A stretch of 33,927 nucleotides of DNA from Syntrophobacterales bacterium (GTDB lineage: Bacteria; Desulfobacterota; Desulfobaccia; Desulfobaccales; 0-14-0-80-60-11): contig JAGVAH010000126.1 of NCBI GenBank assembly GCA_020060385.1, positions 1-33,927 on the forward strand, given 5' to 3'. This document shows, piece by piece, positions 14,961 through 33,885 of the stretch. The notes below the pieces were generated by a model. The model saw only the letters and a list, made by a program, of their open reading frames with translations, was not told the origin of the DNA and ran no database searches. The translations under genes and the position numbers were made by a program. Positions within the stretch are counted from its first letter, which is position 1. The number at the start of each line of letters is the position of its first letter.

Positions 14961-16403
14961 CTATCGACCAGCCGCAAGATCGGAGGCCAGTTGCCAATGC
15001 GAGAACAGTGCCGGCTGTTGGCGTTTGGTACACCAGAATCAATGCCCTGCCTTCCGGGGACGGCCAGGTAATCTCTTGTATTTCCACATGGCCCAGCTTT
15101 GCAGCGAGCGATTGAATTGGTCTGCTAAGCCATAAAAGGCAGACTTATAGTAGCTGTCATAGTAGTTAATCCAGCCACGGATGACTGGGTTAAACATGCG
15201 GGATAGGTCCAGGAGATTCTCGTCGCTTATACCAAATCGCAATCTAACGCCAACTTTCTTATAGGGGCGAACCTTGTGCTCGCCCGCCCGCACAGGGCGA
15301 ATACAAGATTCGCCCCTACAGTTCAATGTCTTTTGATTGCGAAATGGTATTAGCCGGTGCAGGCGCCAGCCCCGGATGACACTCCGCATGGAGTTGGCCG
15401 CCTTTTTGCTCACTGCCGGCAGGAAGCTGACAAACACCCTACCCAGACGGCTTTTGGCTCCCCGGGGCCGAAAGCCAAACCCCAGGAAATCAAACCGCAC
15501 GTTTGGATGACTGCCTGTCCGATCACTGTCTTGGCAGTAAACAATCTTGGTCCTCTCTGGATGGAGTTCCAGCTTGCACTGGGCCAGTCGCCTGGCCACG
15601 ACAGTTTTCAGCCAAAGCGCCTGTCTCTCGCTCTGGCTATGCACGATGATGTCGTCAGCGTACCGCTCGAAAAGGATGGCCGGATAATTCCGGTGCATTC
15701 AGAGACCGAAGGCATAATGCAAGAAGAGGTTGGCCAACAGAGGGCTGACAACCCCACCCTGAGGGGTGTCCTGCTCCCGAGCCATCAGAGTGCCATCCGA
15801 TAATTGCGCAGGGGTTTTCAACCACCGCTCGATATACAAGATGATCCATCGACACTCGGTATGTTTACGCACCGCCCGCATCAAGAGAGCATGATCCAGG
15901 TTGTCAAAGAAGCCTTTGATGTCCAGATCCAGCACCCAGTCGCTGCGCCAGCATCGCTGCCGGGCGAGACCAACTGCCTGAATCGCGGACCTGCCAGGCC
16001 GGTACCCGTAAGAGTCCTGATGAAAGTGAGGCTCCACCAGGGGCTCCAGGTACATCTTGACTACCATCTGGGCTATCCGGTCGGTTACCGTGGGGATGCC
16101 CAGCACCCGCCTCCCACCATCACTCTTCGGTATCTCTACCGTTCTTACCGGTGGCGGGAAATAACTCCCGGATGACATCCGGTTCCAGAGTCTGTAGAGG
16201 TTATTAGACCTGTACCTCCCGAACTCCGCAATGGATTTCCCATCCACGCCCGCAGCACCCTGGTTTGCCTTTACCCGCTGGTAAGCCTCCCAAACCACTC
16301 GCTTGGAAATACCAAACGGCCTTGCCTTATTCAATGGCTCCTCCCATTGCTGGTTGACCATCAAATAAAGCTGATCGACACAACCCCTTCGCTCCATCCC
16401 CAT
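14961..16403 (-). pseudogene. ltrA: Group II intron reverse transcriptase/maturase, broken
   Basis: N-terminal half 15699-16403: RT0-RT4 blocks such as 'AGVDGKSIAEF', 'YFPPPVRTVEIPKSDGG', 'LGIPTVTDRIAQMVVK', 'DSYGYRPGRSA', 'LDLDIKGFFDNLDH', 'TPQGGVVSPLLANLFLHY'. A TGA at 15699-15701 (Trp expected) interrupts the frame, which resumes at once with the catalytic 'FERYADD', 'LELHPERTKIVY', 'FDFLGF' and the maturase X domain ('MFNPVIRGWINYYDSYYKSA'). About 40 residues in the thumb region come from the MITE-like insertion. A frameshift near 15045 moves the end ('QPALFSHWQL') to another frame, closing at TAG 14963-14961. There is no HNH endonuclease domain. Three lesions make it non-functional. Confidence 0.85.
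15229..15350. mobile_element. 122-bp MITE-like palindromic insertion
   Basis: Outer terminal inverted repeats are 16 bp with two mismatches (ATACCAAATCGCAATC at the left; reverse complement of GATTGCGAAATGGTAT at the right). Inside are nested arms TAGGGGCGAA...TTCGCCCCTA and GGGCGA-type stems around CCCGCCCGCACAGGGCG. The whole element folds into one long hairpin and encodes nothing. It interrupts the thumb region of the intron maturase but keeps the frame, adding about 40 residues ('RNQKTLNCRGESC...'). Similar 'TAGGGGCGAAnCTTGTATTCGCCC' elements are, to my recollection, scattered in several environmental bacterial genomes. Confidence 0.75.
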
Positions 16404-19925: not shown

Positions 19926-21149
19926 ATGACCAGGACCATTCAGGAGATCAACGAGAAGATCAAGCAGGGCCGGGCTGTGGTCTGCACTGCCGAAGAGATC
20001 ATCCAGGTGGTGAAAGAAAAAGGGGTAAGACAGGCCGCGGCTACGGTGGACGTAGTGACCACCGGCACTTTTGCCCCCATGTGCTCTTCCGGAGCCTACT
20101 TCAACGTGGGCCACGCTCTTCCCAGGATGAAGATGGGCGGGGGCAGAGTCACCCTGAACGAGGTTCCCGCTTATGCCGGCTTTGCCGCGGTGGACATCCT
20201 CATGGGTGCCACCGCCATTCCTGATGACGATCCCCGGAATAAGGTCTTTCCCGGCAAATTCGCTTACGGCGGGGGCCACGTCATCGAAGACCTGGTGGCG
20301 GGCAAAGACGTGCGCCTCACCGCCCAAGCTTACGGCACCGACTGCTACCCCCGGAAGACCCTGGATACCTGGATCCGCCTGGCGGACCTGAACGAAGCGG
20401 TGCTTTTCAACATGCGGAACGCGTATCAAAATTACAACGTGGCGGTGAACCTCTCGGATAAAGTCATCTACACTTACATGGGCGTGCTCCAGCCCCGGAT
20501 GCGCAACGCCAATTACTGCACCGCGGGCCAGTTGAGCCCCCTCCTGAACGACCCCTACTACCGCACTATAGGGGTGGGCACCCGCATTTTTCTGGGGGAC
20601 GGGGAGGGTTTCGTGGTGAGCCACGGCACCCAGCACAACCCCGGGGTGCGCCGCTCCGAAAAGGGGCTGCCCCAGGTGCCGGCTGGCACCCTGGCGGTCA
20701 CCGGGGATTTGAAAAAAATGAGCCCCAGGTGGCTCCGGGGGGCCTCGTTCACCGGTTATGGGGTCACCCTGACCTTGGGCCTGGGGATTCCCATCCCCAT
20801 TTTGGACGAAGAGACCTTGGAATTCGCCGCGGTCACCGACGCCGAGATCACCGCGCCGGTGGTGGATTATAGCGCGGCCTATCCCCACGGCAAGCCGGAG
20901 ATCCTGGGAGAAGTTACGGTGGCCCAGCTTAAATCCGGGGAAATCTCGGTTAACGGCAAAAGAGTGGTCACCGCGGGGCTCTCTTCCTATGCCCGGGCCC
21001 GGGAGGTGGCGCTCATCCTGAAGTCCTGGATCGAAGCCGGGACCTTTTTCCTCACCGAACCCGTGGCTCCGCTACCCTCCGCTGATTCCGGGTATAAGTT
21101 CAAGCTCCTCCCGGAACGTCCCTGGGATGGTTTGCAGGAGGCCGTTTGA
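19926..21149 (+). CDS. L-aspartate semialdehyde sulfurtransferase (DUF39)
   Basis: 407 aa of the DUF39 homocysteine-biosynthesis family (COG1900). In anaerobes it converts aspartate semialdehyde and a sulfide-derived persulfide into homocysteine, without O-acylhomoserine. Hallmarks: 'VDVVTTGTFAPMCSSGAYFN' with Cys53, 'GGGRVTLNEVPAYAG', 'AYGTDCYPRKT' with Cys140, 'YTYMGVLQPRMRNANYCTAGQLSP', and the C-terminal 'SSYARAREVALILKSWI'. The two conserved cysteines are the residues expected to carry the persulfide and thiol chemistry. AAGGAG precedes the ATG. Its ferredoxin partner follows 60 nt downstream, the same pairing as described for Methanosarcina. It is divergent from cysE-cysK, placing cysteine and homocysteine synthesis around one regulatory region. 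Confidence 0.93.
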   Translation: MTRTIQEINEKIKQGRAVVCTAEEIIQVVKEKGVRQAAATVDVVTTGTFAPMCSSGAYFNVGHALPRMKMGGGRVTLNEVPAYAGFAAVDILMGATAIPDDDPRNKVFPGKFAYGGGHVIEDLVAGKDVRLTAQAYGTDCYPRKTLDTWIRLADLNEAVLFNMRNAYQNYNVAVNLSDKVIYTYMGVLQPRMRNANYCTAGQLSPLLNDPYYRTIGVGTRIFLGDGEGFVVSHGTQHNPGVRRSEKGLPQVPAGTLAVTGDLKKMSPRWLRGASFTGYGVTLTLGLGIPIPILDEETLEFAAVTDAEITAPVVDYSAAYPHGKPEILGEVTVAQLKSGEISVNGKRVVTAGLSSYARAREVALILKSWIEAGTFFLTEPVAPLPSADSGYKFKLLPERPWDGLQEAV

Positions 21150-21209
21150 TGCGGTTTCCGGTCTTCGGTCTGCGAAAAAGAACTTTGTGCTGCTGAGAAG
21201 GATAAGGTC

Positions 21210-21623
21210 ATGGCAAAAAAGAAAGTGGTGCTCAACTTCCCGCCTCATCTCATTGATCAACCCGTTACCTATCGGCTGATCACCGAGCAGGGAGTTAGGG
21301 TCAACATTCTGCGGGCCCGTATCACTCCCAAGGAATGGGGGAATATGGTAGTGGAGCTGAATGGGAAAAAGGCCAGGCTTGAGGACGGTCTGGCTTTCCT
21401 CAGGGAGTTGGGGGTGGAGGTGGAGCACCTGGCGGAAGAGGTCAAGTGGCGGGAAGAACTTTGCATCCACTGCACAGCCTGCCTGGCTCCCTGCCCCACC
21501 AAGGCCCTGTACGTGGAACGGCCAAACATGACGGTGGGCTTTGATAGGGAGAAATGTATCGCCTGCGAGCTCTGCCTGAACGTCTGCCCATACGGAGCCG
21601 TGGAGATCGCCATCGAGCAATGA
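21210..21623 (+). CDS. NIL-domain 2[4Fe-4S] ferredoxin for homocysteine synthesis
   Basis: 137 aa. Residues about 5-78 form a NIL domain ('KKVVLNFPPHLIDQPVTYRL', 'VNILRARITP', 'GLAFLRELGVEVEHL'). It is followed by a bacterial-type ferredoxin with two CX2CX2CX3C-P motifs: Cys85, 88, 91, 95 and Cys116, 119, 122, 126. This exact fusion partners DUF39 proteins in methanogens and sulfate reducers, where it is thought to donate electrons that reduce the enzyme disulfide. It shares an operon with the DUF39 gene and is followed by a perfect hairpin. Confidence 0.92.
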   Translation: MAKKKVVLNFPPHLIDQPVTYRLITEQGVRVNILRARITPKEWGNMVVELNGKKARLEDGLAFLRELGVEVEHLAEEVKWREELCIHCTACLAPCPTKALYVERPNMTVGFDREKCIACELCLNVCPYGAVEIAIEQ

Positions 21624-21656
21624 ATCTATCTTGCAGTCAAAAAGAAAATAATCCTT

Positions 21657-21681
21657 AGAGGCGAACCTGAGGTTCGCCTCT
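21657..21681 (+). terminator. Perfect 11-bp hairpin after the NIL ferredoxin
   Basis: AGAGGCGAACC / GGTTCGCCTCT with a TGA loop, 34 nt past the stop. No U-tract on the plus strand; on the minus strand a T-rich stretch follows the stem. The GGCGAACC/GGTTCGCC core resembles the inner arms of the MITE at 15229-15350, so it could also be a short repeat-derived terminator. Confidence 0.6.
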
Positions 21682-21824
21682 GAATGGCGGTTAACAATTC
21701 AGGTTGCCCCTGCTTCCTTCGAGGAAGAGGGATGGCTCCGTTTGGAGCAAAATTCTTGGTCCTACCTGTGGGGGCTTGTCCTCCATGCTTCTTTATTAAC
21801 CCTCTCCTTCGGTTCCCGTTTCTT

Positions 21825-21902
21825 AAAAAATTTTTTGAGCCGGTTCTTGACTTTCAGGATGCAGGTGTTACATACTATACAATAGCTATATATATTGCAT
21901 AG
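21825..21902 (+). promoter_or_regulatory. Promoter/operator of the TusA-NifS-Rrf2-Hdr operon
   Basis: An A6T6 tract (21825-21836) sits just upstream of a TTGACT -35 (21847-21852); the -10 is weak (CATACT or TACTAT, 21871-21878). Overlapping it is the inverted repeat CTATACAATA / TATTGCATAG (21875-21884 and 21893-21902; one mismatch, 8-nt spacer). This is where an autoregulating Rrf2 repressor would be expected. The preceding 21682-21824 contains nothing else I recognise. Confidence 0.5.
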
Positions 21903-21920
21903 GTAGGCTGGAGGTTGGCG

Positions 21921-22175
21921 ATGAGATTCTTAACCGATTGTAAGGCTGATGCCTCGGCGGATTTGGTCTACCGGGTCTGTCCCATGCATCTGCTGGAGCC
22001 GGCCGATTATCTTAGGGATATGCAGGCAGGCCAAGTGCTGGAGATCATTACCGACTATGACGGCGCGCTGGAGGATATCCCGGCTTGGTGCGCCAAGCAC
22101 GGCCAGGAATTCGTGGGCGTCTGCGAGGATGAGGACGAGGACCACTACAGGCTTTACATTAAAAAGGTCCATTGA
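21921..22175 (+). CDS. TusA/SirA-like sulfur carrier
   Basis: 84 aa from the ATG at 21921 (GGAGG at 21910-21914, 6 nt spacing; the upstream in-frame TTG touches the ribosome-binding site). TusA fold: the sulfur-accepting Cys20 in 'VCPMHLLEP' (canonical CPxP, here CPMH), 'AGQVLEIITDYDGALEDIPAWCAKHGQEF', and the final strand 'DHYRLYIKK'. A second Cys57 in 'AWC' is common in the family. TusA proteins relay persulfide sulfur between cysteine desulfurases and acceptors. As the first gene of the operon, overlapping the NifS-like frame start region, it is likely to exchange sulfur with the NifS-like or IscU-like product. Confidence 0.85.
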   Translation: MRFLTDCKADASADLVYRVCPMHLLEPADYLRDMQAGQVLEIITDYDGALEDIPAWCAKHGQEFVGVCEDEDEDHYRLYIKKVH

Positions 22176-22183
22176 GGGAAATC

Positions 22184-23371
22184 ATGAAAAGGATATATCT
22201 GGATCAGGCCGCAGCCGCGCCGGTGAGGCCCGAAGTGCTGGAAACCATGCTCCCTTATTTTCAGGAGCGCTTCGGCAACCCTTCCGCGGTCTACGACCTG
22301 GGGACCCAGGTCAAGGACAGCATTGAGGAACACCGGGCCCGAGTGGCTACCCTCATCGGCGCCCGTCGCCATAATATAATTTTCACCTCTTGCGGGGCCG
22401 AAGCCAACAATCTGGCCATCAAAGGCGCAGCCCTGGCCCATCTGAAGCAGGGGCGGCATCTCATCGTCTCTGCCATCGAGCACCATTCGGTGCTCAATGC
22501 CGCCCGTTTCCTGGAAAAATTCCACGACTTCGAAGTGACCTTTCTCCCGGTCAACCGCTACGGCCAGGTGGAGCCGGAAAGGCTCCGTAAGGCCCTCACC
22601 CCGTCCACGGTGCTGGTCTCCATCCAACACGCCAGCAACGAAATCGGCACGGTGCAGCATATTCCGGAACTGGCGGCCTTGTGCCGGGAGCAGGGCGTGA
22701 TTTTTCACACCGACGCGGTGGCCACTGCCGGCAGTATTCCCCTAGAGGTCCAGGAGATGGGCGTGGATCTTCTCACCCTGTCAGGTCCGGCTCTGGGCGC
22801 GGCCAAGGGCACCGGCGCTCTTTATTTCCGGCCCCAGCTACGGTTGGTGCCCCAGATTCACAGCGGCATCCAGGAAAACGGCCGCCGGGGGGGCACCGAA
22901 AACGTGCCGGGCATCGTCGGCTTGGGGGTCGCGGCGGAATTGGCCAAGGGCGAGTTGGCAGAGAGGGCTCGTCATTTAAAATCCTTGCGGGACCATCTGG
23001 TGAGGGGCGTTCTGGAGCGGATTCCGGCGGTCATTCATACCGGGCACCCGGAAGAGCGCCTGCCGGGGCATGCCAGTTTCTGCTTCGAGGGACTGGAAGG
23101 GGAGGCTCTGATCTTTCTGCTGAACTCCCGGGGCATCTACGCCAACACCGGCTCCGCCTGCGCTTCCAAAGCCCTGAAGGTATCGCCCACCCTCTGCGCC
23201 ATTGGCCTGTCCCCGGAGGTGGCCCAGGGGTCCATCGTCTTTACTTTTGGCCTGAGTAACCTTAAGGAGGAAGTGGACTACGTTCTGAGGGAATTACCCC
23301 AGGCGGTGGAGAGGCTTAGATCGTTTTCCCCGGTGTGGCGCAAGAAAATGGCGGCCGCATCAGGAGGCTGA
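22184..23371 (+). CDS. NifS/IscS-like protein lacking the PLP lysine
   Basis: 395 aa from the ATG at 22184 (GAGGGA upstream). The overall fold is a class V aminotransferase/cysteine desulfurase: 'YLDQAAAAPVRPEVLE', 'FGNPSAVYDLG', 'AEANNLAIKGA', stacking His100 in 'IEHHSVLN', 'ASNEIGTVQ', Asp177 in 'HTDAV', 'RRGGTENVPG', and the persulfide Cys326 in 'NTGSACAS'. The Schiff-base motif, normally 'SxHKxxGPKG', reads 'SGPALGAAKG': His and the catalytic Lys are Pro202-Ala203. The Gln that contacts PLP (HTDAVQ) is Ala180, and the usual 'RFSLGR' near the end is 'VFTFGL'. Cysteine desulfuration by the standard mechanism is therefore not expected. A non-catalytic persulfide carrier or scaffold role is my inference. 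No frameshift or decay is seen. Confidence 0.85.
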   Translation: MKRIYLDQAAAAPVRPEVLETMLPYFQERFGNPSAVYDLGTQVKDSIEEHRARVATLIGARRHNIIFTSCGAEANNLAIKGAALAHLKQGRHLIVSAIEHHSVLNAARFLEKFHDFEVTFLPVNRYGQVEPERLRKALTPSTVLVSIQHASNEIGTVQHIPELAALCREQGVIFHTDAVATAGSIPLEVQEMGVDLLTLSGPALGAAKGTGALYFRPQLRLVPQIHSGIQENGRRGGTENVPGIVGLGVAAELAKGELAERARHLKSLRDHLVRGVLERIPAVIHTGHPEERLPGHASFCFEGLEGEALIFLLNSRGIYANTGSACASKALKVSPTLCAIGLSPEVAQGSIVFTFGLSNLKEEVDYVLRELPQAVERLRSFSPVWRKKMAAASGG

Positions 23372-23373
23372 AT

Positions 23374-23814
23374 ATGAAGTTGACCACCAGAAGCCGTTAC
23401 GGCACCAGATTGTTGCTGGACATGGCCCAGCATTATAACCAGGGCCCCATCCAGTTGGGGGACATTGCCAGGCGCCAGGGCATCTCTGTGAAGTACTTGG
23501 AGCAGATCATTATCCCCTTGAAGAAGGCCAGTTTCATCCAAAGCGTGCGGGGGCCAAAGGGGGGTCATGTTTTGGCCAGGCCGCCGGCCGAGATTACCGT
23601 GGCCGAGATCGTCGCTCTCCTGGAGGATGGCGTCAGCTTGGTGGATTGCACAGAGAATGCCGAAGTATGCGGCCGGGCAGACACCTGCCCCACCCGCCTG
23701 ATTTGGAAAAAGGCCTCCCAGGCTATGTTCAATACCCTGGAGGCCTTCACCCTGGCCGATCTGGTGGAGATGGCCTGGACCAACGAAAATAAGGAGCTTG
23801 TTCATGTACTCTGA
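23374..23814 (+). CDS. Rrf2-family transcriptional regulator, Fe-S type
   Basis: 146 aa, start ATG at 23374 with AGGAGG 6 nt upstream; the longer frame from 23335 overlaps nifS-like coding sequence and is rejected. N-terminal winged helix: 'KLTTRSRYGTRLLLDMAQH', 'IARRQGISVKYLEQIIIPLKKA', wing 'SVRGPKGGHVLARPPAEITVAEIV'. Three cysteines Cys92, Cys99, Cys105 in the 'DCTENAEVCGRADTC' loop are the IscR/NsrR-type cluster ligands (spacing CX6CX5C). It therefore probably senses Fe-S or sulfur status. Placed between the NifS-like and IscU-like genes with 2-nt and overlapping junctions, it is an IscR-equivalent and presumably controls this operon through the dyad at 21875-21902. Confidence 0.9.
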   Translation: MKLTTRSRYGTRLLLDMAQHYNQGPIQLGDIARRQGISVKYLEQIIIPLKKASFIQSVRGPKGGHVLARPPAEITVAEIVALLEDGVSLVDCTENAEVCGRADTCPTRLIWKKASQAMFNTLEAFTLADLVEMAWTNENKELVHVL

Positions 23815-24193
23815 GACGGTTATGGAGCATTTCGGCAATCCCCGGAACACCGGGGTTATCGAGGACGCTGACGGTGTCGGTGAGGTGGGCAACCCCCAGT
23901 GCGGCGATATGATGACCTTTTATATCAAGGTCAAAGACGACACCATCGAAGAGGTCAAGTTTCAAACCTTTGGCTGCGTGGCGGCCATCGCCGTCTCCAG
24001 CATGGTCAGCGAGATGGCTAAGGGCAAAAGGCTGGCGGTAGCCCAAAAAATCACCAAAAAGGCGGTGGCCGAGGCCCTGGGCGGCCTGCCCCCCCAGAAG
24101 ATGCACTGCTCCAACCTGGGAGCCGACGCCCTGGCCCTGGCCATCAAGGATTATCAGGAAAAGAAGAAAGGCGCCGTCCTTTCGGTGGCCTAA
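23804..24193 (+). CDS. IscU/NifU-type Fe-S scaffold
   Basis: 129 aa from the ATG at 23804 (AAGGAG 7 nt upstream), overlapping the Rrf2 stop by 11 nt. IscU-like N-terminal NifU domain: 'YSETVMEHFGNPRNTGVIEDADGVGEVGNPQCGD' with Cys33 and Asp35, 'FQTFGCVAAIAVSSM' with Cys58, and 'KMHCSNLGADAL' with Cys102. All three cluster cysteines and the labilising Asp are conserved. It lacks the NifU ferredoxin and thioredoxin-like domains. It assembles [2Fe-2S]/[4Fe-4S] clusters on transferred sulfur. Here the only encoded desulfurase-like partner has lost its PLP lysine, which raises the question of the sulfur source. Confidence 0.92.
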   Translation: MYSETVMEHFGNPRNTGVIEDADGVGEVGNPQCGDMMTFYIKVKDDTIEEVKFQTFGCVAAIAVSSMVSEMAKGKRLAVAQKITKKAVAEALGGLPPQKMHCSNLGADALALAIKDYQEKKKGAVLSVA

Positions 24194-24215
24194 AAATTAG
24201 GAAGGTAGATTAGAC

Positions 24216-24812
24216 ATGTATACCGCTCAACCCCTCAGACAAGACGTGGTGACCCCGGATTTGGGAAAGATCGGCAAACCCGGCCCTTCCCTGGCCGCGG
24301 AGGTCAGAGAACAAAGCGGCACCGATTTCTACCGCTGTTACCAGTGCCGGAGTTGCGGCAACGGTTGCCCCTTTGTGCAGGCCATGGACTATACCCCCAA
24401 CCAGGTGCTGCGTCTGGTGCAGTTCGGCATGCGCCAGGAAGTGCTCACCTGTAAAACCATCTGGGTCTGCGTGGGCTGCCACACCTGCTCCAGCCAATGC
24501 CCCATGAGCATTGACATCGCTGCGGTCATGGACACGCTGCGCCTTATGGCAGTGGAAGAAGGCGTGGCCATCGGCAAACCCAATATCATTGATTTTCACG
24601 AAGAAGTGCTCAGGTCCCTGGAAAAATACGGCCGGGCCCACAAGCTGGGAATCATGCTGGGTTATAAACGGCAGACGGGCCGCTGGCTGAAGGATTTGGA
24701 CGTAGGCCTGAAGATGTTGGCCAAGCGCAAATTGGACCTCATTCCTTCCCGGGTCAGGGACGTGAAAGAGATCACCGAGCTATTTCAATGTTACTGGAGG
24801 GAAACGGCATGA
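24216..24812 (+). CDS. hdrC: Heterodisulfide reductase subunit C-like ferredoxin
   Basis: 198 aa. Two CX2CX2CX3CP motifs: Cys41, 44, 47, 51 ('CYQCRSCGNGCP') and Cys85, 88, 91, 95 ('CVGCHTCSSQCP'). Spacing and the helical C-terminus match HdrC, the electron-carrying partner of HdrB. The next gene starts inside its stop codon (ATGA), so HdrC and HdrB are made 1:1. No HdrA flavoprotein is in the window, so the pair must receive electrons from elsewhere or work with a distant HdrA. The preceding intergenic gap is only 22 nt, which keeps it in the TusA/IscU operon. Confidence 0.88.
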   Translation: MYTAQPLRQDVVTPDLGKIGKPGPSLAAEVREQSGTDFYRCYQCRSCGNGCPFVQAMDYTPNQVLRLVQFGMRQEVLTCKTIWVCVGCHTCSSQCPMSIDIAAVMDTLRLMAVEEGVAIGKPNIIDFHEEVLRSLEKYGRAHKLGIMLGYKRQTGRWLKDLDVGLKMLAKRKLDLIPSRVRDVKEITELFQCYWRETA

Positions 24813-25666
24813 GCGACCTGCGGCTCCAGGATTTCTCTTATTTCCCGGGTTGCTCCCTGGCCACCACCGCCGGGGAGAGCAACCGGTCGATGATGCAGGC
24901 GGCCCGGATTTTGGGCCTTAACTTGATCGAACTTCAGGATTGGAACTGCTGCGGTTCCTCCTCGGCCCAGACCATGTGTAAAAACCTGAGCCTGGCCATG
25001 GCGGCCCGGAACCTGTCGCTGGCCCCGCCGGGGAGGCCCCTGGTGGCCATGTGTCCCCGGTGCCTGCACTACTTGCGTTCAACCCAGAAATGTCTAAAAA
25101 GCGATCCGGAGACCAGGGAGGCCCTGGAAGAAAAATGGGGGAGGCCCATATACACGGATCTGGAGATCATCCACTTCATGGAGGTTCTGTCCCGCTATGG
25201 CCTGGACCGCCTTAAGGCCAACGCCCGGCGCAGTCTGAAAGGCCTGAGGTATGTGCCTTATTACGGTTGCACCCTCTTTCGACCGCCCCGGCTGGCGAAG
25301 GAAAGATACTTCCAGGGCGAAATGGAAAACATCCTGGGGGCCCTGGGGGCCCAGGCCGTGCCTGACGCCCTCAGTTACCGCTGTTGCGGCTCCTTTCTCT
25401 CGGCCACCGATCCGGAGATCGTCACTCCCCTGGTCCAGGAAATTATCGGCAGCGCCGCGGCCGCCAAGGCCGACTGTTTGGTCACCGCCTGCGCCATGTG
25501 CCAGCTCAACCTGGAGATGCGCAATACCAGCAGGGCTAAAATTCCCATTTTCCATTTCTCGGAAATCCTGGCCCTGGCTTTGGGAGCCGAAGATTACGAG
25601 GAGTGGTTTGTCAGGCATCTGGTGGACCCGCGGCTGGTGATCCGGAAACTGGCCCAGGCTGCTTGA
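24809..25666 (+). CDS. hdrB: Heterodisulfide reductase subunit B-like protein
   Basis: 285 aa from the ATG at 24809 (GGAGG 8 nt upstream). Two complete CCG domains: Cys15, Cys47-48, Cys82, Cys85 and Cys154, Cys192-193, Cys228, Cys231, the ligand set of the two non-cubane [4Fe-4S] clusters in HdrB ('WNCCGS', 'MCPRC', 'YYGCTLF', 'YRCCGS', 'TACAMC'). HdrB reduces disulfides or related sulfur substrates. Beside TusA, a NifS-like protein and IscU, the substrate may be a protein or small-molecule disulfide/persulfide. It is the last gene of the operon; an 80-nt gap without an obvious terminator follows. Confidence 0.9.
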   Translation: MSDLRLQDFSYFPGCSLATTAGESNRSMMQAARILGLNLIELQDWNCCGSSSAQTMCKNLSLAMAARNLSLAPPGRPLVAMCPRCLHYLRSTQKCLKSDPETREALEEKWGRPIYTDLEIIHFMEVLSRYGLDRLKANARRSLKGLRYVPYYGCTLFRPPRLAKERYFQGEMENILGALGAQAVPDALSYRCCGSFLSATDPEIVTPLVQEIIGSAAAAKADCLVTACAMCQLNLEMRNTSRAKIPIFHFSEILALALGAEDYEEWFVRHLVDPRLVIRKLAQAA

Positions 25667-29644: not shown

Positions 29645-29684
29645 GCCGCTTAAGTCTCAGAAAACTATCAGGGAGGGTCTGGGA

Positions 29685-30959
29685 ATGAAGAAACTGGTTA
29701 TTTTGGGGCATGGGACGGGCGGCACCATCATCGCCACCAAGATGCGCCAAAAACTGCCTGAATCCAAATGGGCGATCACTGTCATCGACCGTGATTGGCA
29801 ACACCATTACCAGCCGGGGTGGCTCTTCATTCCCTTCGGCATCTATACCAAGGAGGACTGCATCAAACCCAGGACTAAGTTTGTCCCTCCCGGGGTCAAC
29901 TTCGTACTGGATGACATCGTTGCCATCGATCCGGAGAAAAAAGAGGTCAAAACCAAACGGGAGACGTTTTCCTACGACTTCCTGGTGATCGCCACCGGCT
30001 GCCGCATCGTCCCCGAAGAAGTGGAAGGCCTGATCGACGGCTGGGGCCAAGACATCCACAATTTCTATACCCTGGAAGGCGCGCTGGCCCTTCATGAGAA
30101 GATGAAATACTTCGATAAGGGCCGGGTGGTGGTGAACATCGCCGAACTGCCCTTCAAGTGCCCGGTGGCTCCCCTGGAATATGCCTTCATGTCGGATTGG
30201 TTTTTCGGCGTCAACGGCGTCCGGGACAAGATTGAAATAGAGCTGGTGACGCCGCTTTCCGCGGCTTTTACCAAACCGGTGGCCGCGGAAGTTCTGGGGA
30301 ATATTTGCCAGGAAAAGAACATCAAGGTGACGCCCAACTTCCAGTTAGCCCAGGTGGATGCGGAGAAAAAGGTCATCAAGTCCTACGGCGGCGACGAAGT
30401 CCCCTATGACCTCCTAGTCTCCATCCCCCCCAACTTCGGGGCCCAATGCCTCATCGACAGCGGTATGGGCGACCCCATGGGTTACATGGACACCGATCAT
30501 TTTACCCTGAAGGCCAAGAATTACGAGGCCATCTATGTCATCGGCGACGCGGCCAACGTCCCCACCTCCAAGGCCGGGGCCGTGGCCCATTACGAGGCCG
30601 ACGTGGTGGCGGACAACCTGATGCGGGAGATCGACGGGCAGCCGCCCCGGCCGGACTATGACGGCCATGCCACCTGAATGGTGGTCACCGGTTACGAGAA
30701 GGGGTCCCTTCTCGACTTTAACTACAAAATCGAGCCGCTGCCGGGCAAATTCCCCTTCCCGGGCATCGGTCCCCTGGATCTCCTGGGGGTCAGTTTCTCC
30801 AACTACGTGGGCAAGATGATGTTCCGCTGGGTCTATTACAACCTGATGCTTAAAGGGAGCCACCTGCCCCTGGAGTCCCAGTTTGTCCTGGCGGGGAAGG
30901 TGCGGGGCATCCTTTCGCCGGATATTGAAATGCCCCTCCGGCAAAGGAGGCGGCCATGA
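29685..30959 (+). CDS. sqr: Sulfide:quinone oxidoreductase-like flavoprotein, probable selenoprotein
   Basis: 424 aa including TGA codon 331 (30675-30677) read as selenocysteine; start ATG at 29685, 7 nt after GGGAGGG. FAD-binding 'KLVILGHGTGGTIIATKM', 'YDFLVIATGCRIVPEEVEGL' (Cys106), 'AELPFKCPVAPLEYAFMSDWFF' (Cys159), 'LVTPLSAAFTKPVAAEVLG', 'YVIGDAANVPTSKAGAVAHYEADVVADN'. In SQRs the motif 'YDGHANC' carries the third redox Cys; here it reads YDGHAT-TGA. The protein then continues in the same frame with the family C-terminus ('LDFNYKIEPLPGKFPFPGIGPL', an amphipathic membrane-binding helix). A SECIS-like hairpin follows the TGA. Truncation at the TGA would remove the membrane anchor and the cysteine. 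It would oxidise sulfide to polysulfide with quinone, or run in reverse. A nonsense mutation is the alternative. Confidence 0.85.
30695..30714 (+). promoter_or_regulatory. Bacterial SECIS-like hairpin in the SQR-like gene
   Basis: Arms CGAGAAGG and CCTTCTCG are perfectly complementary with the apical loop GGTC. The stem begins 17 nt, and the loop 25 nt, after the TGA. This meets the known description of bacterial SECIS elements: a stem-loop immediately downstream of UGA with a short G-containing (GGU) loop at 16-37 nt, bound by SelB. The hairpin is inside coding sequence, as required. Confidence 0.7.
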
Positions 30960-31819
30960 GTGGAGAGGAGCAAATCCTGGCGCGTCTGGCCAGAATGGAA
31001 GAGAAGCTGGATCGAGTCGCAGACTTCGAGGAGCAGTGGGGCAAATTCGGCCAAACCTTGGAAAGCCTGAGCGATCTGGGCCGGGACCTGTCTCTCTTGA
31101 TGGGCCCCGGCGCCAGTCTGCTCACCGAAGAACTGGCTGAAGTGGAGACGGGGTTCCAATTGGAGGACGTCCTCTATCTGGCAAAAAGGCTCCTCTTGAG
31201 TTTCCGGCATATTGCCAGGTCCCTGGAGCAAATGGAGAACCTCATCGACTGGTGGCGGGACATGGAGCCTCTCCTGAAGATTGCGGTCCCCCATCTGGTG
31301 GACAAGCTGGACGACCTGGAGCAGAAGGGCATCTTCCGCGTCAACTCGGCCATCCTCAATATGTACGCCAAGCTCGCTTCGGCTTATACCCCCGAGGATG
31401 TGGAAGTTATCGGCGACGGCTTCGTACGCATGCACGGCATCGTCAGGAAGTTCGCCGATCCCGTGGTCATCCAATCCATCGAGGCCGTGGTGGATATGTA
31501 CGCCAAACTCGCCTCGGTCTATACGCCTGAGGACATCGCCTCCATCGGCGACGGGTTCGTGCGCATGCATGGCATCGTCAAGAAATTTGGGGATCCAAAG
31601 GTGGTGGATTTTCTCGACCGTCTTACGGACGTACCGGCCGTGGTGAACCTGGACGGGGCACAGCCGGTGAGCCCGTTTGGCATGCCGTTCCGCATGCTGA
31701 GCAAAGAATGCAAGCAGGGATTGGGAGTGGCCCTGGAACTGACCCGGGCCCTGGGTAGCGTTAAGTCCGGTAACGGCCGGGCCCAGTCCCCAGCCGCAGA
31801 TCAACCTGCGAAACGATAG
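30956..31819 (+). CDS. DUF1641 protein, SQR partner
   Basis: 287 aa, ATGA overlap with the SQR-like stop and GGAGG 6 nt upstream. It is all-helical, with an N-terminal coiled coil ('ILARLARMEEKLDRV'), then the DUF1641-type segment 'LAKRLLLSFRHIARSLEQMENLIDWWRDMEPLLKIAVPHLVDKLDDLEQKGIF'. DUF1641 genes sit beside SQR and formate dehydrogenase genes in other genomes, and the stop/start coupling supports a 1:1 partner. Residues 136-170 ('MYAKLAS-YTPED...IGDGFVRMHGIV-KF-DP') are repeated at 181-214, also visible at DNA level as a 135-bp tandem duplication. There are no membrane segments or cofactor motifs. It is probably an accessory/assembly or docking subunit. Confidence 0.8.
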   Translation: MSGEEQILARLARMEEKLDRVADFEEQWGKFGQTLESLSDLGRDLSLLMGPGASLLTEELAEVETGFQLEDVLYLAKRLLLSFRHIARSLEQMENLIDWWRDMEPLLKIAVPHLVDKLDDLEQKGIFRVNSAILNMYAKLASAYTPEDVEVIGDGFVRMHGIVRKFADPVVIQSIEAVVDMYAKLASVYTPEDIASIGDGFVRMHGIVKKFGDPKVVDFLDRLTDVPAVVNLDGAQPVSPFGMPFRMLSKECKQGLGVALELTRALGSVKSGNGRAQSPAADQPAKR

Positions 31820-31875: not shown

Positions 31876-32637
31876 ATGGCGCTGGCAGCAAAGGAATTAC
31901 CCCAAGAAGACGCCCTGGTTCGAATGCAACGGGATTTGAAGCGGGCTTTGCAGAAAAAACCCCAGGACATTAAATGGGGCATGGTCATCGACATCGCCAA
32001 GTGCATCGGCTGCCATGCCTGCACCATCGCCTGCGTCGCGGAAAACAAACTGCCACCGGGGGTGGTGTACCGGGTGGTCCTGGAGGAGGAGGTGGGCCAT
32101 TACCCCGCAGTAAGCCGGCGTTTCGTCCCCCGGCCCTGCCTCCATTGCCAGAACCCCCCATGCACCAAGGCCTGTCCGGTCACCGCCACCTGGAAAACTG
32201 CCCAAGGGGTAGTGATCGTGGACTACAACCGCTGCATCGGCTGCCGCTACTGCCTGGTGGCCTGTCCCTACAGCGCCCGGACCTCGGATTTTGCGGAGTG
32301 GTATACCGGGGGGACGCCGGACCTGGGGGGAAAACTGGTGGGCCGCAAGGCCGCGGCCAACGGCTACGAAGCGCACCCGGCCGCGGAATACGGCCAGAAG
32401 TGGCCGGAGCGCGATCATGACTCGCCGGTGGGCAACGCCCGCAAATGCCACTTCTGCCTGCACCGTCTGAAGGTGGGCATGCTGCCGGCCTGCACCACCA
32501 CTTGCATCGGCCGGGCCACTATCTTCGGAGACCGCAGCGATCCCCAAAGCCTGGTGTACGAAATGATTGGCTCCCCCCGGGTTTTCCGGTTGAAGGAAGA
32601 ATTGGGGACGCTGCCCGCTGTTTATTATCTGAAGTAA
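31876..32637 (+). CDS. PsrB/SreB-like four-cluster Fe-S subunit
   Basis: 253 aa. Four ferredoxin clusters of the CISM electron-transfer type: Cys43, 46, 49, 53; Cys88, 91, 96, 100; Cys120, 123, 126, 130; Cys191, 194, 206, 210 ('CIGCHAC', '[14 protein letters not shown]', 'CIGCRYC', 'CHFCLHRL...CTTTC'). No signal peptide. This subunit links a catalytic molybdopterin subunit to the membrane NrfD-like protein. GGAGG precedes the ATG. The gene is followed 15 nt later by the NrfD gene, forming a Psr/Sre/Ttr-like module. Substrate is probably a sulfur compound (polysulfide, thiosulfate, tetrathionate), inferred from the SQR neighbour. Confidence 0.92.
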
Positions 32638-32652
32638 GAGAGGGAGAATCTC

Positions 32653-33885
32653 ATGCTCAATGAAAGACACTTTAGATACATCATCATCCTGGCTGTCTGC
32701 GGCCTGATCATCGGCACCTGGGGCATGGGAGCCCGGCTGCTCTACGGCCACAAGTACATGGATTACGGCTCTTTCGTGCCCTGGGGCCTCTGGGTCGCAT
32801 TCGACCTGTTTTTCCTGGGTTTGACGGCCGGAGCTTATATCGTCACCGTCCTGGTCTATGGTTTCCGGGTCAAACTCTTCGCGGCCCTGGGTCCTCTGTC
32901 CGTTTTTGCCCTGTTGGTCACGCTCCTGTGCGAGGGGATCATCATCTCCCTGGACCTGGGCCACCCCTTAAGGATTTACCGGTTTTTACTCACTCCGAAT
33001 TTCGGCTCCATGCTTTTCTGGCTGGTGGCTTTCATCGTGGCCATGTGGGCCATTTACCTGCCCACCTTTTATCTGCTGCTGCGGGAGCAGCTCGTTGTCT
33101 GGTCCCGGGATGAAAAGAGGCCGGGGCAAAAATTCTTCCGGTTTCTGGTGGGAGGCCGAACCGCTTATGGCGAGGAAGACCGGGCCCGGGATCACCGGCG
33201 GGTGCGCGTTCTATCCTACATCAGCATGCCCATAGGCTTGTTATTCTTCGGGATGCACGGCGCTCTCTTCGCGATTCTGTTAAACCGGCCTTTGTGGAAC
33301 GGGGCCATGACCCCCTTCCTTTTCATTATGGCCGCTTTGCTTTCCGGCGGCGCTTTGATCACCTTCCTGACCTATCTCTTCCACCCCCGGGATGACCTGG
33401 TGCAACCCCTGGGACGGATTGTTCTCGGTTTGCTGGCGACCTTTCTCTTTCTGGAGGCCTTGCAGTTCTTCGTGGGCTACCAGTCCCAGGTTCCCAACTT
33501 CGTCACCAGCTTGAACCTCATCGCCTTCGGGCCCTTCTGGTGGGCCTTTTGGATCTTGCACCTGCTCATCGGCAGCGCCATCCCCATGTATATCCTGATT
33601 ACTCAGCCCCGCAACACCCGGGCGGTGGCCTGGGCCTGTTTTCTGGTATTAATTACGTTTTTCGCAGTTCGCCTGAATTATCTGATCCCCGACCTGGCGG
33701 TGTACAAGCTGGAAGGTTTGCAAAATACCTTTTACTCCCACCGGTTACGCACGGATTACGTGCCCAACATCAATGAATGGCTGGTGAGCATCTGGGTTTT
33801 GTCTTTGGGTTTACTGACCTTCTTCCTGGGTATGCGCTGGCTGCCGGTGGAAGCCGCCGGAATTGAGGAGGAAGAACATGTCTAA
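32653..33885 (+). CDS. NrfD/PsrC-like quinone-interacting membrane subunit
   Basis: 410 aa, about nine to ten membrane helices, for example 'YIIILAVCGLIIGTWGMGARLL', 'LFAALGPLSVFALLVTLLCEGIIISLDLG', 'LFWLVAFIVAMWAIYLPTFYLLL', 'MTPFLFIMAALLSGGALITFLTYL', 'IVLGLLATFLFLEALQFFVG', 'FWWAFWILHLLIGSAIPMYILI', 'INEWLVSIWVLSLGLLTFFLG'. 'VPWGLWVAFDLFFLGLTAGAYI', 'EGIIISLDLGHPLRIYRF' and 'TPNFGSML' are NrfD-family sites near the quinone pocket. It exchanges electrons between menaquinone and the PsrB-like subunit. Its end overlaps the start of the next gene by 8 nt. Confidence 0.92.
   Translation: MLNERHFRYIIILAVCGLIIGTWGMGARLLYGHKYMDYGSFVPWGLWVAFDLFFLGLTAGAYIVTVLVYGFRVKLFAALGPLSVFALLVTLLCEGIIISLDLGHPLRIYRFLLTPNFGSMLFWLVAFIVAMWAIYLPTFYLLLREQLVVWSRDEKRPGQKFFRFLVGGRTAYGEEDRARDHRRVRVLSYISMPIGLLFFGMHGALFAILLNRPLWNGAMTPFLFIMAALLSGGALITFLTYLFHPRDDLVQPLGRIVLGLLATFLFLEALQFFVGYQSQVPNFVTSLNLIAFGPFWWAFWILHLLIGSAIPMYILITQPRNTRAVAWACFLVLITFFAVRLNYLIPDLAVYKLEGLQNTFYSHRLRTDYVPNINEWLVSIWVLSLGLLTFFLGMRWLPVEAAGIEEEEHV

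Follow-up and report, generated by a model that had tools for sequence, protein, structure and literature searches.

A single in-frame TGA in a gene for a sulfide:quinone oxidoreductase (SQR) is almost certainly decoded as selenocysteine (Sec), at residue 331 of the product. The gene occupies positions 29685 to 30959 on the forward strand of the 33,927-nucleotide stretch of Syntrophobacterales DNA analyzed here (the window). We hold with high confidence that it encodes an FAD-dependent SQR of the type III selenoprotein subtype, in which UGA 331 would be decoded via SelB and a downstream hairpin and in which Cys159 and Sec331 would form the redox pair. An earlier note on this DNA, made from the sequence alone, knew of no described SQR-type selenoprotein; the type is in fact not new and was catalogued in 2025-2026. 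The model NF049943 carries the name “type III sulfide quinone reductase, selenoprotein subtype,” and Table 1 of a 2026 review lists the type III SQR as a selenoprotein with motif HxxU, crediting it to the deep-Sep study, PMC12013277 (PMC13188914). That study reports the Desulfosediminicola protein under the name NAD(P)/FAD-dependent oxidoreductase and notes further homologues with TGA elsewhere (PMC12013277); Desulfosediminicola belongs to Desulfobulbales, as do the organisms named in the study. Within our partial coverage of the literature, which comprised papers without their supplements, we found no report of the window's clade or of its hairpin. The additions made here are modest: a separate Sec lineage with its own selenocysteine insertion signal (SECIS), and evidence of later reversion to Cys.

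Decoding of the in-frame TGA

The type III-like SQR frame is preceded by a ribosome-binding site (AGGGAGGG, 29670 to 29677, forward strand, read directly) 7 nt ahead of ATG 29685, and its stop TGA (30957 to 30959) overlaps ATG 30956 of the next gene as ATGA, for a product of 424 amino acids counting Sec331. The good ribosome-binding site and the abutting next gene had both been described in the earlier note, and its placement of the one internal TGA, at 30675 to 30677 in an otherwise continuous SQR-like frame, was correct to the base. Across 16 genomes of the window's family, 18 genes carry that TGA at residue 331, aligned with Cys in other homologues. Beyond it, seven homologue comparisons gave dN/dS of about 0 to 0.11, indicating that the sequence past the UGA is coding and under purifying selection.

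A nonsense mutation followed by a dead downstream part would account for the TGA itself, and a reverse transcriptase gene in the same window (15039 to 16403) is also split by TGA. Given that so many genes share the SQR codon, that selection persists past it, that the frame has no other lesion, and that the operon overlap is intact, we consider a pseudogene extremely improbable; the further lesions that the earlier note named as the mark of decay were not found. Alternatively, the UGA could terminate translation as a regulated stop, yielding a 330-residue protein plus a reinitiated C-terminal piece of 93 residues, and ATG 30678 does directly follow the TGA in the window gene. However, that codon is CTG or ATT in other Sec copies, Cys homologues are read without a break, and termination would delete a residue invariant in 177 homologues, all of which makes such a stop very unlikely.

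The Sec reading is matched by the machinery of the genome, which is 4.15 Mb in size and 99.95% complete. The search for sel genes that the earlier note had proposed recovered the whole set: selA and selB above cut-off, selC as a tRNA-Sec(UCA) gene (anticodon TCA), and a selD (L230, G000:C115 8447-9361) that itself carries an in-frame Sec TGA (AAGUASKIPPG). An apparent second tRNA-Sec gene was rejected; the two matches are identical and both end contigs, with a 98-nt overlap, and so most likely represent one gene. Among the genomes tested, 39 of 41 have selA, and it is present in every Sec-SQR genome except one that is 81% complete. A change of code or a suppressor by which UGA is read as Trp or Cys would likewise leave the codon open in frame, but UGA ordinarily terminates genes here, the SQR gene itself among them, and homologues have Cys rather than Trp at the position; with the Sec machinery complete, we give this option next to no credence.

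The remaining element needed for Sec, a bacterial SECIS hairpin, lies at 30695 to 30714 (forward strand). Its arms, CGAGAAGG (30695 to 30702) and CCTTCTCG (30707 to 30714), pair perfectly over 8 bp around a GGTC loop (30703 to 30706), exactly as the earlier note had it, and since the hairpin starts 17 nt past the TGA, the loop lies 25 nt past it. Constraints quoted for such elements in the 2026 review are a loop 16 to 37 nt past the UGA, a stem of 4 to 16 bp, a loop of 3 to 9 nt with an early G, and a minimum free energy of -7.5 kcal/mol or lower (PMC13188914); the window hairpin falls within all four (25 nt, 8 bp, a 4-nt GGUC loop, and -12.6 kcal/mol). The homologue comparison suggested in the earlier note, of Cys and TGA forms together with the hairpin, came out in favor of Sec: the 20-nt hairpin is letter-identical in 18/18 Sec genes of the family, with fold energies from -12.6 to -15.2 kcal/mol, is lacking in the family's Cys paralogues (about -4 to -6 kcal/mol), and is disrupted in nearly all Cys copies.

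Conservation at the level of codons points the same way. When the 229 degenerate codons with an invariant amino acid were compared, codons 337 to 343, seven codons that are exactly those of the hairpin, formed the only run of at least three silent-frozen codons in the SQR gene, against a frozen fraction of 6.8% among 219 other amino-acid-invariant codons. With the TGA recurring across genomes and the hairpin codons frozen, the combination is far beyond chance. A search of the hairpin region against Rfam returned no matching family, and a 63-nt fold was not more stable than its shuffles (z -0.9); the SECIS signal is the local hairpin and its conservation, not the wider 63-nt fold. The features expected of a bacterial selenoprotein gene, UGA/Cys pairing, a SECIS hairpin, and selA, selB, selC, and selD, are all in place, and together with the intact frame and the downstream selection they bear out the proposal of Sec at 331.

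Enzyme family and redox pair

Assignment to the SQRs rests on sequence family, alignment to human SQOR, and fold. The protein matches NCBIfam NF049943 over its whole length (668 bits against a cut-off of 525) and resembles that subtype in having Sec in HxxU and a Thermodesulfobacteriota host. Because NF049943 scores Sec and Cys forms alike, and many Cys-only SQRs exceed its cut-off (e.g., L040 4830-6077 and L081 4001-5221), its score or name alone is no proof of Sec. The nearest solved relative is human mitochondrial SQOR (E 1e-50; identity 28%). It is also the best fold match (TM 0.85) to a structure model whose mean pLDDT is 86.9, and other SQRs and NDH-2 rank behind it.

In the alignment to human SQOR, Cys159 (codon at 30159 to 30161, forward strand) and residue 331 fall on chain residues 161 and 339, which by an offset of 40 would correspond to Cys201 and Cys379; the human enzyme thus differs in having Cys, not Sec, at the latter position. 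The earlier note had counted Cys106 as a third redox cysteine, but just 124 of 177 homologues have it. Cys159 and residue 331, in contrast, do not vary in this set, and the conserved pair predicted to be redox active is Cys159 with Sec or Cys at 331. The same note had placed the TGA at the redox cysteine of a “GHANC” motif; the conserved Cys column holds, and the motif of the window's clade is instead DGHATU.

The human enzyme has a trisulfide bridge between Cys201 and Cys379; Cys201 adjoins FAD, and the outer sulfur on Cys379 goes to an acceptor (PMC12510033). Sec331, being aligned with this sulfur-passing cysteine, is most likely on the sulfur-transfer side. We infer Sec insertion itself, the selenium-sulfur chemistry, and the quinone identity as follows. 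SelB bound to the GGUC-loop hairpin would bring Sec-tRNA(UCA) to UGA codon 331 during synthesis of a probably membrane-associated protein. By homology with the human enzyme, Cys159 would face the flavin, and Sec331, in place of the exposed Cys379, would take the sulfide sulfur as a persulfide and pass it to an acceptor; FADH2 would then give its electrons to (mena)quinone. Sec would here occupy the sulfur-transferring position of an SQR, where the human form relies on an unusual trisulfide.

Three SQR copies occur in the window genome: the window gene (contig C4, Sec), a second Sec copy at 80% identity (C140), and a Cys copy at 68% identity (C48). The Cys paralogue is like the window gene in length, in motif (DGHSTC), and in having a DUF1641 gene next to it, but has TGC at the site and no hairpin. 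Since a single genome combines Sec and Cys copies (two and one, respectively), how Sec affects sulfide oxidation can be tested directly.

Origins and probable loss of Sec among SQRs

A search of 258 genomes in the order of a Desulfobulbaceae MAG (L113) yielded 36 distinct Desulfobulbales Sec SQR genes, in which the motif reads DGHA(L/V)U and the GGCTTCGGGAAAGCC core is invariant. Unlike the window gene, they have the hairpin AGGCTT-CGGGA-AAGCCT with its loop 17 nt past the UGA, and they branch elsewhere in the tree. When the 20 residues around the Sec/Cys site were masked, the two Sec groups lay in separate clades among Cys lineages. Two origins are ahead by 28 log-likelihood units and by starred branches, and the AU test does not reject a single clade of both groups (p 0.115); two Cys-to-Sec conversions are therefore favored, not proven, by these results and the unlike hairpins. 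As a separate observation, one Desulfobulbales genome carries SQRs in tandem, a Cys form followed directly by a Sec form (L192, G500:C9 47941-51275).

Four Cys sequences, from Desulforhabdus sp. TSK, two Desulfobacca-type genomes, and G019 (a member of the window's family), nest within the window's Sec clade, which suggests Sec-to-Cys reversion. Monophyly of Sec in this clade was rejected at p 0.022, for a Cys group that was named after the first tree had been seen. The genomes of the nested group retain tRNA-Sec, and the Desulforhabdus gene has a hairpin one silent change away from the SECIS (-9.8 kcal/mol), for which a codon test of a fossil hairpin (6/7 codons, P 0.15) was not significant alone. 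Reversion in the window's lineage is likely, not proven, on this sequence evidence. As a full history, we lean slightly toward two changes of the active-site Cys to Sec, one in the window's lineage and one in Desulfobulbales, with a separate SECIS for each, and then, in the window's lineage, a return to Cys in Desulforhabdus, Desulfobacca, and G019, with the Sec machinery kept and a near-intact fossil hairpin in Desulforhabdus. The 2026 review describes Sec-to-Cys changes as rare and known mainly from FdhA and SelD (PMC13188914). The SQR tree may provide a natural gain-and-loss series for Sec.

Genes around the SQR

The gene overlapping the SQR stop encodes a DUF1641-type partner (30956 to 31819, forward strand); by tblastn, every Sec or Cys locus checked has a homologue of it after the SQR gene. 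Pfam DUF1641 scores above its cut-off in the C140 and C48 partners and below it in the window partner, which also has an apparent internal duplication at 31386 to 31640 (AKLASxYTPEDxxxIGDGFVRMHGIVxKFxDP, twice) that those two partners lack. Next on the forward strand are genes for a DsrO/TtrB-like 4Fe-4S protein (31876 to 32637) and an NrfD-like membrane quinone-interacting subunit (32653 to 33885; PF03916, E 1e-29). We infer the functional link of this pair to the SQR from position alone, because the pair is found in just some relatives; the DUF1641-type, Fe-S, and NrfD-like products may all act with the SQR.

Upstream of the SQR gene, a sulfur-handling neighborhood at 19926 to 25666 comprises HcyBio (homocysteine biosynthesis), NIL-ferredoxin, TusA (21921 to 22175), cysteine desulfurase, Rrf2, IscU, and HdrC-/HdrB-like genes. 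Inspection by eye of the other TGA-containing frames in the window gave no further clear selenoprotein candidate. Among them, the reverse transcriptase (RVT_1) frame, on the reverse strand, has its TGA between FLHYAFGL and MHRNYPAI and, unlike the SQR gene, resembles a decayed group II intron.
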